From IMG/VR virus record IMGVR_UViG_3300021425_000208, positions 1 to 22,683 of that record: a stretch of DNA of 22,683 nt. One strand, given 5' to 3'. A program made the translations under genes and the position numbers. Positions 1,308 through 22,683 of the stretch are shown here, one piece after another (within the stretch, counting starts at the first letter, position 1; every line of letters starts with the position of its first letter). Under the pieces are notes generated by a model. The model was not told where the DNA came from. It did not search any database and worked only from the letters and a program-made list of their open reading frames with translations. The DNA is from a virus.

Positions 1308-1571
1308 CTCGTTGACCTGAGAAGATAGACACGTAAGACATCAGTGCAAATCTGATCGCCTCCACCATTCACATTTTACGAAGTGTCAATGTTGGGGGCG
1401 TATTTAGACTCGATTACGGTTGAAAATATCAGAGAGGGCGAATGACCATGTGGGTCTAAAACACAAACTAAATCAACTGCAAATCCAGCTGATTATACTT
1501 CAGCACAGATGGCAATGGCCGCCTGATAGCTGACGAGGATTGAGGCTGTTCCTTGTCACCAAAACAGTCTC
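1308..1571 (+). ncRNA. ssrA: Circularly permuted (two-piece) tmRNA
   Basis: The acceptor piece comes first: a T-arm with stem ATCAG (1340-1344), loop TGCAAAT (1345-1351) and stem CTGAT (1352-1356), then the acceptor strand CGCCTCC (1357-1363), A, and an encoded CCA (1365-1367). After a 26-nt intervening segment the coding piece starts with GGGGGCG (1394-1400), which pairs with CGCCTCC over seven base pairs including one G-U. A D-loop-like stretch follows. The tag frame runs from GCA at 1479 to TGA at 1524-1526 and reads ANPADYTSAQMAMAA, backed by a second stop (TAG). TATC (1427-1430) can pair with GATA (1324-1327), joining the two pieces. A 9-bp helix (1541-1549 with 1563-1571) closes the 3' part. 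The 5' and 3' ends are estimates. tmRNA with SmpB rescues stalled ribosomes and tags their products for proteolysis. Confidence 0.9.
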
Positions 1572-7295: not shown

Positions 7296-7481
7296 GTGAG
7301 AGAACTTTTAGATATAAGAACACCTCAACAATCAGCACACGACCTACGACAACGAGTTCATGAACTGAATCAAAATAAAAGAGGTGATTTTTATTCACTC
7401 TTGCCAGTCTATTGCGAAAGAAATCCTGTAGTATATTATTACTTAGTTAAAGAATATGAAACTAAATCTTATCGTTACTGA
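7296..7481 (+). CDS. Hypothetical protein, 61 aa, GTG start
   Basis: The frame is open from a GTG at 7257, but that start lies in a stem-loop. The GTG at 7296 has AGGAG five bases upstream (7286-7290) and is preferred. The 61-residue product is polar and charged, ending in a Tyr-rich segment ('NPVVYYYLVKEYETKSYRY'). It overlaps the next gene by 26 bases. No family is recognised. Confidence 0.6.
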   Translation: MRELLDIRTPQQSAHDLRQRVHELNQNKRGDFYSLLPVYCERNPVVYYYLVKEYETKSYRY

Positions 7482-8250
7482 AATTGACCGAAAACTCGCC
7501 ACACACTTTGTTGAAAAAACTCATTACTCACCCATTATGCCAAGACTGACAAGACATTTTCTTGGGTTTTACCAAGAGAATGAATTGAAAGGTGTATTGA
7601 CACTTGGTTGGGGAACAAGACCACGACACACAATTCAGAAGTTATTTCCTTCTTTAAACACCGATGATTATTTCGAAATTGGAAAGATGTGCATGGGTGA
7701 TGAAATGCCAAGAAATTCTGAATCACAGATGGTTGCTCAGACTGTCAAGTGGTTGAAACAATATCATCCATCAAGAATCTTTCTCTACACAATGGCCGAT
7801 GGTATCATGGGTAAATGTGGCTATGTGTATCAAGCATCAAACTTTTATTATGGTGGTCAATATCTGACAATGGTTTATTTGATGCCCAATGGTGAGAAAC
7901 TTCACCCTCGTTCCACAAAGAAACTTCTAATCGAAAATCAGGAATTCTCAGGTCGCAAGAAACTTCACTGGATGACCAGAGACTTCATGAATCATAAAGG
8001 TATTCGCCTGATTGAAGGTCAAATGTTTCGCTACATTTATCCTTTGAACAAGACCGCAAAAAGAATGATGGAGAAAGAATCCACCACAGAGTGGACAAAG
8101 AACTATCCAAAAGACCATGACTTGATTTGGTACGACAAAACTACATTACCTAAACAGGTCATTACAAAACCGAATTTCACATATGAGAATATGGAATTCA
8201 ACCCTCAAGCACAGAAATCTTCTGAAATCAATCTCTTAGAACTTTTTTAA
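7456..8250 (+). CDS. Mom-like (GNAT-fold) DNA-modification protein
   Basis: The 264-residue protein matches the Mom family pattern: 'VEKTHYS' (His22-Tyr23), 'LKGVLTLGWGT' (about 44-54), 'FEIGKMCMGDEMPRNSESQM' (about 74-93), 'RIFLYTMADGIMGKCGYVYQ' with 'ASNFYYGG' directly after (about 109-136). In phage Mu, Mom adds a carbamoylmethyl-type group to adenine, protecting DNA from restriction; related GNAT-fold proteins are scattered in phages. The C-terminal third (about 170-264) is basic. Substrate and product here are unknown. It overlaps the previous gene by 26 bases, so start coupling is likely. Assignment is by remembered motif pattern, not by a search. Confidence 0.68.
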   Translation: MKLNLIVTEIDRKLATHFVEKTHYSPIMPRLTRHFLGFYQENELKGVLTLGWGTRPRHTIQKLFPSLNTDDYFEIGKMCMGDEMPRNSESQMVAQTVKWLKQYHPSRIFLYTMADGIMGKCGYVYQASNFYYGGQYLTMVYLMPNGEKLHPRSTKKLLIENQEFSGRKKLHWMTRDFMNHKGIRLIEGQMFRYIYPLNKTAKRMMEKESTTEWTKNYPKDHDLIWYDKTTLPKQVITKPNFTYENMEFNPQAQKSSEINLLELF

Positions 8251-10691: not shown

Positions 10692-11051
10692 TTGTCAAAA
10701 CTCTCAGAAAAAGATTTAGAATCACTTCGGCATTCTGCTGAAGTTTATATGGTCAATAAAATCTATGATGATTTTCATTTTCCATTTATTGTTTCATTTG
10801 GTAAAAAACATATCTTTCAAGAATTCTCTCATGGAGATATTCATCTAGGCGTGCTTTATCTTGAATGGCACAAACTTGAAAATGAAAGAAGAGGATATTA
10901 TAAACCAACTTGGTTGAATTCGTTTGAAGAAGCCGCTGAAAAAGCGATTGAAATTCAATCGAATAAAATTGTGGATGAAGAAAAGTTATATCGTTATCAT
11001 CAATCTTATTTTTCAGACATTTATAATCCACCTGAAAGGTTATATTCATGA
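10692..11051 (+). CDS. Hypothetical protein, 119 aa, probable TTG start
   Basis: The TTG at 10692 lies just after the preceding stop, with the purine-rich GAGAAGA (10681-10687) as ribosome site; the next ATG (10749) has no ribosome site. The product is aromatic-rich and helical, with a central 'HGDIHLGVLYLEWHKLENER' segment, and has no membrane region. No family is recognised. The gene overlaps pyrF by four bases (ATGA), so the two are translationally coupled. Confidence 0.65.
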   Translation: MSKLSEKDLESLRHSAEVYMVNKIYDDFHFPFIVSFGKKHIFQEFSHGDIHLGVLYLEWHKLENERRGYYKPTWLNSFEEAAEKAIEIQSNKIVDEEKLYRYHQSYFSDIYNPPERLYS

Positions 11052-11695
11052 AGCCTCTTGATCGAATTATATTATCACTCGATACAACTGATACTGATTA
11101 TGCAAATCGAATGATTGAAAAATATTCAGAAAGAATCTATGGATTTAAACTGAATCATTTATTGTTCAATCAACATTCACTTCTTCGTTATTCTTATACA
11201 GATGTTCCGACTTTGGTTGATTATAAACTATTTGATATACCAAACACCATGATCGAAATTTTGATTGATCTGATTGACCGTGGTGTTGATATGGTGACAG
11301 TTCATATGGCAAACAGTCAAGTATCTTTGGATATTCTTGCTGACTATGCTGACAAAATCAAAATCTGTGGCGTAACATTGTTGACCAGCTGGACTGATGC
11401 TGATTGTCAGACACGATATGGTAAAACTCCCGCCGAACTATATGCTCAGAGTATTGCTGAGATGGAGAAATATGGTTTCTGGGGAATGATTTGTGCGCCA
11501 ACAGATTTACAGTATGCTCAAATGGCAAATACATCTCTCAAAAAAATATGTCCTGGTATTCGCCCCAATACCTCAATCGCAACCTTGATTAGCACAGATG
11601 ACCAAGTTCGAATTATGACACCTGACCAGGCAATTGAAGCAGGAGCAGACTACTTGGTGATGGGCCGATCCTTCTACGAATATGTCAATGATTGA
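11048..11695 (+). CDS. pyrF: Orotidine 5'-phosphate decarboxylase
   Basis: The 215-residue protein has the full OMP decarboxylase signature: 'LSLDTT' at the N-terminus, 'GFKLN' (about 32-36), the catalytic DxKxxDIPNT block (Asp58, Lys60, Asp63), 'TVHMA', 'CGVTLLTS', 'CAPTDL', 'PGIRP' (169-173) and 'ADYLVMGRS' (200-208). It converts OMP to UMP, the last step of de novo pyrimidine synthesis. Length fits bacterial PyrF. All key residues are present, so it should be active. In a phage it would boost UMP for nucleotide supply. It overlaps its neighbours on both sides, in an operon with the methyltransferase. Confidence 0.93.
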   Translation: MKPLDRIILSLDTTDTDYANRMIEKYSERIYGFKLNHLLFNQHSLLRYSYTDVPTLVDYKLFDIPNTMIEILIDLIDRGVDMVTVHMANSQVSLDILADYADKIKICGVTLLTSWTDADCQTRYGKTPAELYAQSIAEMEKYGFWGMICAPTDLQYAQMANTSLKKICPGIRPNTSIATLISTDDQVRIMTPDQAIEAGADYLVMGRSFYEYVND

Positions 11696-12794: not shown

Positions 12795-13352
12795 ATGCAA
12801 GGTGAAATCTTCTTAACGTCTGATACGCACTATTGTCATTCAAACATATTGAATTTCAAAGATTTTAATGGCAATGCTGTTCGTGGTCAATTTGCGACTG
12901 TTGAAGAAATGAACGAGTGTATGTTCGATGGATGGAATGAGACAATTCGTGAAAACGATACTGTCTATCATCTTGGTGATTTAGCAATGGGTCCATATAA
13001 GAAAAGTGATTTTGCTGAACGATTTCGTTCATTACCTGGTAAAAAATATTTGATTGTAGGTAATCATGATGATATCAAGTGGTGTGTAAAGAGTAAATTA
13101 TTTAAAGAAATTACAATGTGGAAAAAGTTTAAAGATAAAAAATTACTTCTTACACACATACCTGCGGATGTAAGTAATTTGAAATTTTATACTGAAGAAG
13201 ATCGAATGATTAATATTCATGGTCACATTCATAACTTAAAAAGCCCTACAAAAAATCATCGATGTGTTTGTGTTGAATGGACAAACTATAAACCAATACA
13301 TATTGATGAAGTTGAACAATTAAATAACTATACAGAAAGAATCTATGAATAA
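12795..13352 (+). CDS. Calcineurin-like metallophosphoesterase
   Basis: Starting at the ATG at 12795 (TGGAGA at 12785-12790 upstream), the 185-residue protein begins 'MQGEIFLTSDTHYCHSNI', the normal N-terminus of this family. The metal-binding signature is complete: Asp10-x-His12, Gly61-Asp62, Gly89-Asn90-His91-Asp92, 'THIPAD' and Gly143-His144-x-His146. A TTG start at 12759 with GAGG upstream would add 12 residues. The enzymes cleave phosphomono- or diesters; substrate is unknown here, with nucleotide or RNA ends among the options. The stop overlaps the halogenase start by eight bases, so the two are expressed together. Confidence 0.9.
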   Translation: MQGEIFLTSDTHYCHSNILNFKDFNGNAVRGQFATVEEMNECMFDGWNETIRENDTVYHLGDLAMGPYKKSDFAERFRSLPGKKYLIVGNHDDIKWCVKSKLFKEITMWKKFKDKKLLLTHIPADVSNLKFYTEEDRMINIHGHIHNLKSPTKNHRCVCVEWTNYKPIHIDEVEQLNNYTERIYE

Positions 13353-14928
13353 AATTGTAATTGTTGGTGGGGGAACTTCAGGCTGGTTTACCGCAGCCGC
13401 TATTTCTAAAAATTTACCAGAAGTTGATTTGACTTTAATTGAATCATCAGACATACCAACAATTGGTGTGGGTGAATCGACAATTCAAAGTATAAGATTA
13501 TTTTTTGATGAATGTTTAGGTATTGATGTTCATGACTTTTTAAAAGAAGTTGACGGCACACTTAAAGTTTCAATTGCTTTTTCGAATTTTTCAAATCAAT
13601 TGGAAAAATTTCAATATCCATTTGGTGATGTTTTACTTCATAATCAACAACTTCTTTTCAGTACTGATGAATATGAAAATGTTTGTCTTCAGGGATCTGA
13701 TTTATCTTTTATTGATTTGTTAAATTATGGTAATGATAATTCTTTATTCGCTGAATATAATAAACTTCCTGTTCCTCAGAATTCTGAAGATTATCTTTTA
13801 TTCACAAAAAATTGTGCTTTTCATTTTGATGCTTCGAAAATGGCAATTTTTCTCAAGAATAAGTTTTGTTCAAATATTAAACATATTCAAGCAACAATCA
13901 CAGAAGATCAAATTAAAGTAGATGAAGATGGTATTCAAAGTATTCATTTGAATGATGGTACTGAAATTACAGCAGATTTATTTATTGACTGTACAGGATT
14001 TAAATCATTACTGCTTGAAAAGAAATTAGGTGTTTCCTTTAACAACTTTGACTTTCTTGTAAATGATAGCGCAATAGCGGCAAGAATTCCATATCAAAAT
14101 GAAATAGAACAAAAAGAAAAGATACATAACACTACATTATGCACAGCAGTTGAAGAAGGTTGGACTTGGGAAATTCCTTTGTGGAATCGTTTAGGTGCCG
14201 GATATGTTTATTCATCTCAATTTACATCTAGAGAAAAAGCAGAACTTGATTTTCGTGAACAATTTGATTGGACTGGACCTGTAAACTATATTTCATTTCG
14301 ACATGGATTTCATGAAAAAATGATTTACAAAAATGTTGCAGCAATTGGTCTTTCTTATGGTTTTATTGAACCTTTAGAATCAACTGGATTAGTAACAACG
14401 CATAATAATATTATGTTATTGCTTGATGAGATTCAAAAAAATCGTTCATCATCATTTTTGAATTCAATTTCAAAAGAAGGTATGAACGGACATTCAAGGT
14501 CTGTGATTAGAGGTTTTGCTGATTTTGTCTTTACACATTATGTGTTAACAAATAAAGATCATAATGCTTATTGGAAACATATGACACAAAAAGCATTTTA
14601 TTCTCATCCAGATTCAGATGTATATGTAAGTTCATTAAATAAAACCATACCTTATCATGGTAATAATATAATTATATCAAGAGAACATTTAGGTCCTTAT
14701 TGTATATCAAAAGGATTTAATCCAGTTGATTTTAATTTCTTTAGCAAATTCTCACTAAAGATGGTCAAAGAATTTGACCAATTATTTTCGAATAGTAATT
14801 ATCATTCATATCAAAAAGCAATTGCAAATGAAGTTCGTAATCACACATCAATGAGAAAAAAACAAATACTTGACTCAAAGGATTTTGTTTCTACGTATGA
14901 TTACTTAAAAAATGAATTTTATACCTAA
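13345..14928 (+). CDS. FAD-dependent halogenase (tryptophan halogenase family)
   Basis: The 527-residue protein has the FAD-binding 'GGGTSGW' (residues 8-14), the 'IGVGEST' loop (40-46), the catalytic lysine in 'GTLKVSIAF' (Lys74), the halogenase fingerprint 'GWTWEIP' (272-278) and 'GFIEPLESTGL' near the FAD/halide site. All are intact, so an active halogenase is expected, using FADH2, oxygen and halide to make an enzyme-bound hypohalous species. Related genes occur in marine T4-like cyanophages, and one cyanophage enzyme (VirX1) was shown to prefer iodide. The natural substrate is unknown. No flavin reductase is visible in the window, so FADH2 must come from the host. Confidence 0.92.
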   Translation: MNKIVIVGGGTSGWFTAAAISKNLPEVDLTLIESSDIPTIGVGESTIQSIRLFFDECLGIDVHDFLKEVDGTLKVSIAFSNFSNQLEKFQYPFGDVLLHNQQLLFSTDEYENVCLQGSDLSFIDLLNYGNDNSLFAEYNKLPVPQNSEDYLLFTKNCAFHFDASKMAIFLKNKFCSNIKHIQATITEDQIKVDEDGIQSIHLNDGTEITADLFIDCTGFKSLLLEKKLGVSFNNFDFLVNDSAIAARIPYQNEIEQKEKIHNTTLCTAVEEGWTWEIPLWNRLGAGYVYSSQFTSREKAELDFREQFDWTGPVNYISFRHGFHEKMIYKNVAAIGLSYGFIEPLESTGLVTTHNNIMLLLDEIQKNRSSSFLNSISKEGMNGHSRSVIRGFADFVFTHYVLTNKDHNAYWKHMTQKAFYSHPDSDVYVSSLNKTIPYHGNNIIISREHLGPYCISKGFNPVDFNFFSKFSLKMVKEFDQLFSNSNYHSYQKAIANEVRNHTSMRKKQILDSKDFVSTYDYLKNEFYT

Positions 14929-16375: not shown

Positions 16376-16849
16376 ATGACAAATATAATTCACGACCGAA
16401 GAGATTCACATGAACGCCGAGTAACACATGACCGGCGAGACAGTGAAGAAGATAATTTTTATACGGATCAAAGAAAAGAAGAACGAAGAAGCGACAAAGA
16501 CCGTCGACAGTTGACAAGACGGAATCAACATGATCGACGAGTTCAAACTGTGAATGTGACAAATGACCGTCGAAAGTCTTCACGAAGATTTACGGATGCT
16601 GCTCAATTTCAAGAAGCATTGTCAGTAAAATCTGAAGAAGTGAATTTAGAAGCGTTACCTGATTGGGTGAGTGGTACATTACAAGAAGCTGAGAAAAGAA
16701 GGGCTGAACAACCAGCATTGTCACCACCTCCTGTAGATATGACCGGATCGGAAAACAAAGAAAAGTATTTTGATGTGTGGGTGGTCACAGTTACACTAAT
16801 TATTCTTTTATGTTTCATGGGAGCAGGTTATATATTTTATTTTACTTGA
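16376..16849 (+). CDS. Arginine-repeat tail-anchored membrane protein 1, 157 aa
   Basis: The first 71 residues carry Arg-Arg pairs, often as Asp-Arg-Arg, at 8, 14, 20, 37, 43, 48, 54, 65 and 70, so mostly spaced five or six residues. A less charged linker (about 72-128) follows, then one membrane helix near the C-terminus (about 132-155, 'VWVVTVTLIILLCFMGAGYI'). With no signal peptide it should be a tail-anchored inner-membrane protein with the basic repeat in the cytoplasm. The gene at 17793 has the same plan. Function is unknown; binding of nucleic acid or acidic lipid at the membrane is inference. The ATG has no strong ribosome site (ACAGAAA upstream). Confidence 0.75.
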   Translation: MTNIIHDRRDSHERRVTHDRRDSEEDNFYTDQRKEERRSDKDRRQLTRRNQHDRRVQTVNVTNDRRKSSRRFTDAAQFQEALSVKSEEVNLEALPDWVSGTLQEAEKRRAEQPALSPPPVDMTGSENKEKYFDVWVVTVTLIILLCFMGAGYIFYFT

Positions 16850-16863
16850 GAAAAAGATTATGA

Positions 16864-17793
16864 ATGTCAGCAAAATTACCGATCGATATTACAACTGAAG
16901 AAATTATAGCATTAGATTTTCGTTACTCTTATACAAATTCAGAACTATATAAAGATTGGCAGAAATTACAAAATACAATCTTATATAAAACAGGTTCTCA
17001 ATTCAAACCAGGATTGAAACTTTGTCAGCACTTTTTTCCTAATTTCTGGAAAATCGAAAATTCGAAAGGATTATCTTTTGAAAAATGTTGGCAAGATCGA
17101 ACATTGATGAAGAAAATTCATGAATGGGGTTTGAATTCAATGAGTTCTCTATGGCTCTCATGGATTCGCAGAGCCGTATACTTAGCGGGTGGTTTACCAA
17201 ACTCATCTTATTACCGTCCGCATTTTTCAAAACAAATCATTGAGCAATTCTCAAAGAAGAAAAATGGAATCTTATTTGATCCTTGTGCTGGTTGGGGCGG
17301 GCGTATGCTCGGAACTGTGGCTGCTGGCTGGTCTTATGTTGCATGCGAACCGAATCGAGAAACGTATGAGAATTTATCAAAACTGATTGATTTTCTTGAC
17401 ATCTCGAATTCTGTCACACTACATAACATACCGGCAGAAAAGTTTACCTATGACCAAAAGGTAGATGTTGTTCTTACATCTCCACCTTACTTCAACCTTG
17501 AAATATATACGAGAGACTTAGACCAATCGTATCATCGTTATCTTGAATATGAAACTTGGAATGAAAAATGGTTTCGGCCATTGATGGAAAATTCAATGTC
17601 AATGCTGAATGAGAATGGTCTTTCTTGCTGGAATGTAATGAATTTTGGCAAACAAGACCTTGTTGAAACAGTCATTGATGTTCATGTAAAAAATAATTAT
17701 CGCTATCTTGACCGTGTTGGTTTTACAAGTCCTCTTGCGAATATAAGAAACCTTAAAAATAAAGACGTTACTTATATTTACCAAAGGATTTAA
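16864..17793 (+). CDS. DNA methyltransferase, paralogue 2
   Basis: The 309-residue protein is a clear paralogue of the product of 11682-12716: the same N-terminal signatures ('YSYTNSELYKDWQKL', 'GLKLCQHFFPNFWKI', 'YRPHFSK'), motif I 'DPCAGWGGRMLG' (139-150) and motif IV 'TSPPYFNLEIY' (205-215). AdoMet-dependent methylation of N6-adenine or N4-cytosine is expected. It lacks about 25 N-terminal residues of copy 1 and has a different C-terminal end. It lies between two arginine-repeat membrane proteins; its TAA overlaps the next ATG (TAATG), indicating coupling. The ribosome site is weak. Confidence 0.82.
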   Translation: MSAKLPIDITTEEIIALDFRYSYTNSELYKDWQKLQNTILYKTGSQFKPGLKLCQHFFPNFWKIENSKGLSFEKCWQDRTLMKKIHEWGLNSMSSLWLSWIRRAVYLAGGLPNSSYYRPHFSKQIIEQFSKKKNGILFDPCAGWGGRMLGTVAAGWSYVACEPNRETYENLSKLIDFLDISNSVTLHNIPAEKFTYDQKVDVVLTSPPYFNLEIYTRDLDQSYHRYLEYETWNEKWFRPLMENSMSMLNENGLSCWNVMNFGKQDLVETVIDVHVKNNYRYLDRVGFTSPLANIRNLKNKDVTYIYQRI

Positions 17794-18164
17794 TGTTAGA
17801 CGAATATGAAATCAAACTAAATGAGAAATCAAGTAGATTTTTATATGATACAAAGAGTGCTGACCGAAGACAATATGTTCAACGAAGAGCAACATCAGTA
17901 AGAAGAGAATTAGCAGACCGCCGACGTGAACAGCTTGCTGTTGAAGTTGAAAGACGTAAAGAACAAAGACGAAAGTTAAATGATCGAAGATTCTTTGAAG
18001 AGAGAAGAGTTACTTCAAATTACTCTCAAGAAAGATTAGAAGAAGAAAGACGAAAACTTGAATTTCGAAAAAGTGGAGATGCTCCTTTTTATGTGATTGC
18101 ATTTGTTTTTCTTGGACTTTTACTTTCAATGGGATATTTTTTATACACTGAATTTTTTATATAA
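17793..18164 (+). CDS. Arginine-repeat tail-anchored membrane protein 2, 123 aa
   Basis: ATG at 17793 overlaps the methyltransferase stop and follows AAAGGA (17783-17788). Arg-Arg pairs occur at 25, 31, 37, 43, 54, 59, 65, 71 and 86, again five to six residues apart with one gap, three of them as Asp-Arg-Arg. A single membrane helix lies at the extreme C-terminus (about 99-118, 'FYVIAFVFLGLLLSMGYFLY'). This is the same layout as the protein from 16376, so the two are probably paralogues or at least built alike. The periodic basic doublets suggest a long helix with one positive face. Function unknown. Confidence 0.78.
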   Translation: MLDEYEIKLNEKSSRFLYDTKSADRRQYVQRRATSVRRELADRRREQLAVEVERRKEQRRKLNDRRFFEERRVTSNYSQERLEEERRKLEFRKSGDAPFYVIAFVFLGLLLSMGYFLYTEFFI

Positions 18165-21978: not shown

Positions 21979-22683
21979 ATGTTTCGTTTCTTTCTCGACA
22001 AGTCCTATTGGCATTGGTCCATTTTAGGCACTTTGGTGATTCTTAGTTCTGTCTGGTATTCAGTTCAGTTGGATGTTCAAATAAATCAGTGGTTTGGAAC
22101 ATTTTATGACTTGTTGCAGAAAGCACTCTCAGCACCAAATGCGGTAACTCTTGATGAATTTTATAGTCAACTATATACATTCTTTCAGATTGCCGCAATT
22201 TATATTGTTGTCAATGTTGTCTTTAATGGATTCTTTGTGAATCATTATTGCTTTCGTTGGCGAAAATCAATGGCGGATTACTATCAAGAAAACTGGCAAA
22301 AAGCAAGAACAATTGAAGGAGCTTCTCAACGTGTTCAAGAGGATACTCTCAAGTTTGCAAGATTGACAGAAGACCTTGGCGTTGGTCTGCTTGAATCAAT
22401 TCTCATGCTCGTTGCCTTTGTGCCTATTCTTTATGGACTTTCAAAAAGTGTGACTGAGCTACCTTATTTTGGTCAAGTTGATCATGGTCTTGTTTGGGTT
22501 GCTCTGACAACTGCTCTTGGTGGTACTGTTCTTCTTTCCTTAGTAGGTGCGAAACTACCCGGTATTGAATACAATATTCAGAAAGAAGAAGCCAGCTATC
22601 GTAAAGAACTTGTTTATGGTGAAGATGATGAAACAAAAGCCGACAACATGAGCATTCATCATTTGTTTTATAAAGTTCAGAAG
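21979..22683 (+). CDS. sbmA: SbmA/BacA-like peptide transporter (truncated by window end)
   Basis: The frame is open from ATG 21979 to the last base, 235 residues. It aligns closely by memory with the middle of SbmA/BacA: 'WSILGTLVILSSVWYSVQL', 'WFGTFYDLLQKALSAP', 'VNHYCFRWRKSMADYY', 'IEGASQRVQEDTLKFA', 'GAKLPGIEYN' and 'YRKELVYGEDDETKA'. These inner-membrane proteins import peptides, including antimicrobial peptides and bleomycin, using the proton gradient. At least four hydrophobic segments are visible. The protein starts where E. coli SbmA is near residue 80, so it lacks that protein's N-terminal part. A membrane transporter in a phage genome is unusual. Confidence 0.88.
   Translation, partial: MFRFFLDKSYWHWSILGTLVILSSVWYSVQLDVQINQWFGTFYDLLQKALSAPNAVTLDEFYSQLYTFFQIAAIYIVVNVVFNGFFVNHYCFRWRKSMADYYQENWQKARTIEGASQRVQEDTLKFARLTEDLGVGLLESILMLVAFVPILYGLSKSVTELPYFGQVDHGLVWVALTTALGGTVLLSLVGAKLPGIEYNIQKEEASYRKELVYGEDDETKADNMSIHHLFYKVQK

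Follow-up and report, generated by a model that had tools for sequence, protein, structure and literature searches.

A circularly permuted two-piece tmRNA gene beside pstS in a T4-like phage fragment, and an apparent allele swap next to a Seg-like ORF in sister phages

The window, the whole 22.7-kb stretch of DNA that was analysed, is a fragment of a T4-like phage, as marked by gp32, tail-fibre and other genes; its gp32 is nearest to those of cyanophage-type myoviruses (about 42% identity). The T4-like gp32 and tail genes support the phage origin assigned by an earlier, sequence-only reading of this DNA. That reading also placed a tmRNA next to a phage pstS, which is supported by a PF12849 match in the downstream gene. 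The features of the locus are as follows:

1308–1367, + strand: acceptor piece, with strands of the cross-piece helices, the T-arm, the 3' acceptor strand, discriminator A and an encoded CCA (RF04321 match from 1307; cofold)
1340–1356, + strand: T-arm ATCAG-TGCAAAT-CTGAT, 5 bp with a 7-nt loop
1357–1367, + strand: 3' acceptor strand CGCCTCC, then A1364 and CCA 1365–1367
1368–1393, + strand: intervening segment of 26 nt, presumably removed on maturation
1394–1571, + strand: coding piece, with the 5' acceptor strand, the partner strands of the cross-piece helices, the tag frame and the 3' pseudoknot (RF04321, RF01850, cofold)
1394–1400, + strand: 5' acceptor strand GGGGGCG, pairing with 1357–1363
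1479–1529, + strand: tag frame ANPADYTSAQMAMAA, then TGA TAG (synonymous-biased change)
1531–1571, + strand: 3' H-type pseudoknot, which ends the gene
1531–1538 and 1551–1558, + strand: pseudoknot stem 1, TGACGAGG paired with CCTTGTCA
1542–1550 and 1563–1571, + strand: pseudoknot stem 2, GAGGCTGTT paired with AACAGTCTC (covaries with the relative L221)
1637–1652, + strand: terminator-like hairpin with a T-run after it, in the gap that separates the tmRNA from pstS (consensus match only)
1683–2633, + strand: pstS-like phosphate-binding protein gene, 3' of the tmRNA (PF12849, E 4e-38)

A circularly permuted two-piece tmRNA had been proposed at 1308–1571. This was confirmed with the RF04321 model (tmRNA_permuted), which aligned end to end (model positions 1–213) with 1307–1526 of the + strand at 70.2 bits (E 6.7e-12), above the gathering score of 47. 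The coordinates of the sequence-only reading for the CCA (1365–1367), GGGGGCG (1394–1400) and the start of the tag (1479) proved correct. ARAGORN, suggested as a further check, called no gene in the window and no tmRNA in the relatives, and would have failed if used alone. As a standard gene finder misses the window tmRNA, surveys of phage tmRNAs that rely on ARAGORN alone probably give numbers that are too low. A DNA search with the window tmRNA across phage records returned a chance match only, and a scan of the 300 bases before the gene gave no sigma-70-like promoter.

The acceptor helix forms across the linker with all seven pairs, the third being G.U (G3.U70), which is the alanine identity element of tmRNA. 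The tag ANPADYTSAQMAMAA has 15 codons, an Ala resume codon, a hydrophobic -AA end and tandem stops. In the region before the tag, at the place of pseudoknot 1 (PK1), the Rfam alignment and the cofold showed a 4-bp hairpin (GACC/GGTC) only. The tmRNA folded better than shuffled sequences (z −2.52; 1/200). Cofolding of the two cut pieces gave an interaction energy of −16.3 kcal/mol, against −7.8 ± 4.0 for shuffled pieces (5/100 as good), and both predictions, the fold and the cofold, contained the expected acceptor, T-arm and cross-piece helices, including the helix that joins the tRNA-like part to the mRNA-like part. Several cross-piece positions are non-standard pairs in the Rfam alignment of the window copy.

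The window tmRNA was compared with those of L123 (IMG/VR), L221 (whose contig encodes a gp32 71% identical to that of the window) and Pelagibacter phage Mosig. Acceptor and T-arm sequences vary among the four copies and pairing is complete in all; G3.U70 and A-CCA are constant. In pseudoknot stem 2, L221 and the window differ on both strands, showing covariation. The tags of the window and L123 differ at 10 nucleotides and 2 amino acids (6.5 expected; P 1e-4), and those of the window and L221, whose tag is ANNNDYTSAQVAMAA, at 13 nucleotides and 3 amino acids (8.1 expected; P 1.5e-4). The helices are kept by two-sided changes and the tag changes are mainly synonymous, which indicates that the tmRNA is under selection, purifying in the case of the tag. 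The linker can also form a hairpin (1371–1386); the linker hairpins of the relatives differ in sequence, and the L221 and Mosig linkers fold more strongly. We left this hairpin out as evidence because shuffled sequences fold as well as the window linker alone.

A copy in decay or without function, such as host DNA that was captured and has fallen out of use, would agree with the failure of ARAGORN to call the gene and with an Rfam score lower than those of L221 (87.7) and Mosig (93.6). However, all tested helices survive double changes across alleles, the tag changes mainly at synonymous sites, and the tandem stops, CCA and G3.U70 are intact; we regard decay as very unlikely. It is highly probable, judging from the sequence, that 1308–1571 is a circularly permuted ssrA gene that functions in the phage.

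The locus is conserved. L221 carries a permuted tmRNA at the same place, and a convergent tail gene, like that of the window, follows the gene next to it; this neighbouring gene, judged by eye, looks like a PiT-type phosphate permease in place of pstS. A permuted tmRNA adjoins pstS in the IMG/VR phage L110 as well, and the closest isolate homologue of the window PstS is that of Mosig (55.6%). Host tmRNA genes are common integration targets, which would favour reading the window copy as what remains of an attachment site after a temperate phage had integrated into host ssrA. Such integration has been noted in the phage literature (PMC9004378). Nevertheless, the window has the two pieces in full and not just a 3' fragment, the phage belongs to the T4-like group, L221 has kept the locus at a gp32 identity of 71%, and no integrase was present among the subset of ORFs scanned in the 22.7-kb fragment, making a remnant extremely improbable.

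Between the tmRNA and pstS, four direct repeats starting with CTAAC lie at exactly 11-base spacing (1578–1617). This array was reproduced in 0/100 shuffles, and its spacing is that of Pho boxes. The repeats suggest that the phage pstS may be under host PhoB control, as has been reported for cyanophages (PMC10976474).

We infer that the phage gene is expressed, processed, charged and used with SmpB to the benefit of the phage; a self-supplied ribosome rescue, as the sequence-only reading had it, is plausible. A single transcript would carry the acceptor piece ahead of the coding piece. Host tRNA-processing enzymes would excise the 26-nt linker, and the acceptor and cross-piece helices would keep the two resulting RNAs joined. 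With G3.U70 present, host AlaRS could charge this complex with alanine. No SmpB gene was found in the 22.7-kb fragment, and therefore host SmpB would be needed; bound to it, the charged complex would enter ribosomes stalled on broken mRNA, where the tag would be added and the ribosome released at TGA. Host proteases would then degrade the tagged protein, and infection would benefit from ribosome recycling kept up while mRNA is degraded.

The phage RNA might instead compete with or retune host tmRNA, for example through a tag that host proteases handle differently. In line with this, the phage lineage keeps its own tag, the tag-coding pattern had no match in 84,980 bacterial genomes, and in E. 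coli the host tmRNA is inhibited by a phage tmRNA that lacks a tag (DS6A; PMC11915505). The window tag, however, starts with Ala and ends in -AA as tags usually do, the expected degradation signal, and its coding frame is kept; we consider competition or retuning unlikely and ribosome rescue the preferred reading.

A permuted phage tmRNA next to pstS had been called uncommon, which is not supported in that form: 53 of 133 unique phage tmRNAs are two-piece, 50 of these 53 are marine or aquatic, and Melnitz and Mosig are among them (PMC9004378). A tmRNA database contains 79 bacteriophage sequences of all forms (PMC11915505). In IMG/VR, one acceptor pattern was found at at least 120 loci, and 60 of the matches listed have a complete T-arm; L110, with its neighbouring pstS, is one of these. 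Phage-borne permuted tmRNAs are thus already established, and because they have been published, the window tmRNA is a known kind of gene; what it contributes is a further lineage of ribosome-rescue RNA in viruses, divergent and under selection. Like the window, Mosig and Melnitz are marine T4-like myophages with a permuted two-piece ssrA (PMC9004378), but their tags are different and their ssrA genes have no detectable DNA similarity to the window copy. Mosig likewise encodes PstS, although its pstS lies about 18 kb from ssrA, whereas the two genes are adjacent in the window. A glutamine riboswitch is reported in both Mosig and Melnitz (PMC9004378); none was found in the window with Rfam.

The bacterial permuted families (RF04321, RF01849 alpha, RF01850 beta and RF01851 cyano) have gene order, acceptor, T-arm, cross-piece helices and tag in common with the window. 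With the older bacterial models, the best match of the window was to beta_tmRNA (1260–1598, 43.4 bits, E 2.6e-12), under that model's own cut-off of 84, whereas the L221 copy passes alpha_tmRNA (55.4, cut-off 50). The permuted form had been taken to point to a host clade with permuted ssrA. The permuted form stands, but the step to a host clade is weak because Melnitz, a phage of OM43, has an ssrA of alphaproteobacterial type that does not match the lineage of its host (PMC9004378), and the tag and pseudoknot have no convincing bacterial match. Six pseudoknot-pattern matches were scattered over unrelated phyla and were treated as chance.

Comparison with two sister contigs of IMG/VR, L123 and L122, revealed a replacement that covers most of the gene:

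1303–1531, + strand: stretch replaced in L122 and L123 by a Seg-like ORF and a divergent tmRNA front part and tag

On the left flank, L123 is 97.6% (1–1113) and 96.8% (1114–1302) identical to the window; on the right, the two are nearly identical from 1532, with 156 consecutive matching bases, so that identity resumes at the border of tag and pseudoknot. The L123 cassette consists of a 261-aa ORF and a poorly aligning tmRNA front part, and the whole tmRNA genes are 68% identical, the identical 3' end included. The same cassette is present in L122, which comes from a different metagenome and whose left flank is only 72–83% identical. In L123, a 162-base insertion (L123 4497–4658) separates the 1–1113 and 1114–1302 blocks, just upstream of a small lipoprotein-like ORF that precedes the tmRNA. 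The ORF-linked allele appears to have a 6-bp T-stem and a GGCAGTT loop (L123 5626–5730), and the stop codon of the endonuclease-like ORF overlaps the opening bases of the acceptor piece.

The 261-aa ORF matched NUMOD3 with 18.1 bits (E 0.0026), under the cut-off of 20.4, and Pfam gave no GIY-YIG match in the L123 and L122 ORF. Its relatives include a Seg-like HEG of Aeromonas ZPAH1 (E 8e-4) and a Vibrio phage ORF (E 3e-8) that is itself akin to many Seg-like HEGs. A profile search of PDB sequences with the L123 ORF returned nothing relevant, and the predicted structure was unusable (pLDDT 34). The endonuclease-like gene is absent from the window. Among the 25 commonest Pfam/PHROG families of the ORFs immediately flanking 60 other viral permuted tmRNAs there was no homing-endonuclease family, and therefore an HEG neighbour is not a general feature of these genes. 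A search with a small HEG profile likewise gave nothing convincing.

An assembly chimera could still produce such a swap, but two contigs assembled from different metagenomes share the junction of HEG and tmRNA, and each of the two alleles has a tmRNA of intact structure. The swap fits homing by a putative endonuclease with co-conversion of a tmRNA, and on the simplest reading the window would hold the endonuclease-free allele of a tmRNA replaced by homing in its sister phages. We propose tentatively, as a serious possibility, that the phage tmRNA gene is a homing target: the Seg-like product would cut the HEG-less window allele, repair would copy the endonuclease together with the divergent tRNA-like half and tag and end at the shared pseudoknot, and tmRNA alleles would hitchhike between phages. 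The swap suggests that tmRNAs are traded between viruses.

The segB gene of T4 is located within a group of tRNA genes, whose preferential inheritance SegB brings about, and homing of this type co-converts flanking sequence (PMC2988022). A further paper, which does not mention tmRNA, finds an enrichment of SegB homologues around phage tRNAs (PMC13096335). L122 and L123 resemble the T4 case in that a Seg-like gene stands free next to the gene of a structural RNA, and in the replacement of flanking sequence between related phages; they differ in that the neighbour is a tmRNA rather than tRNAs and in that the product of the L123 ORF is a putative nuclease. The allele swap beside a Seg-like ORF in sister phages seems to be a new observation. 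With flanks about 97% identical, the allele pair offers a natural test of two questions: can the tRNA-like half and the 3' pseudoknot be interchanged, and does homing disseminate ribosome-rescue RNAs in the way that SegB disseminates tRNA genes? If the homing reading is true, tmRNA alleles spread and swap between phages as homing-endonuclease hitchhikers.

Several other genes were found in the window. Two proteins (16376–16849 and 17793–18164) have arginine-rich DRR..ERR repeats and a C-terminal hydrophobic, probably membrane, segment, and a family search gave no convincing match for them. An orotidine 5'-phosphate decarboxylase-like gene lies at 11048–11695, a tryptophan halogenase-family protein is encoded at 13345–14928, and an SbmA/BacA-like peptide transporter (E 6e-98) at 21979–22683 is cut by the contig end. 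A Mom-family protein at 7456–8250 (PF25680, E 2.5e-56) suggests that the phage may modify its DNA. The T4-type late promoter word TATAAATA occurs five times, at 117, 5328, 6576, 10454 and 16333, all on the + strand, with 1.1 occurrences expected.
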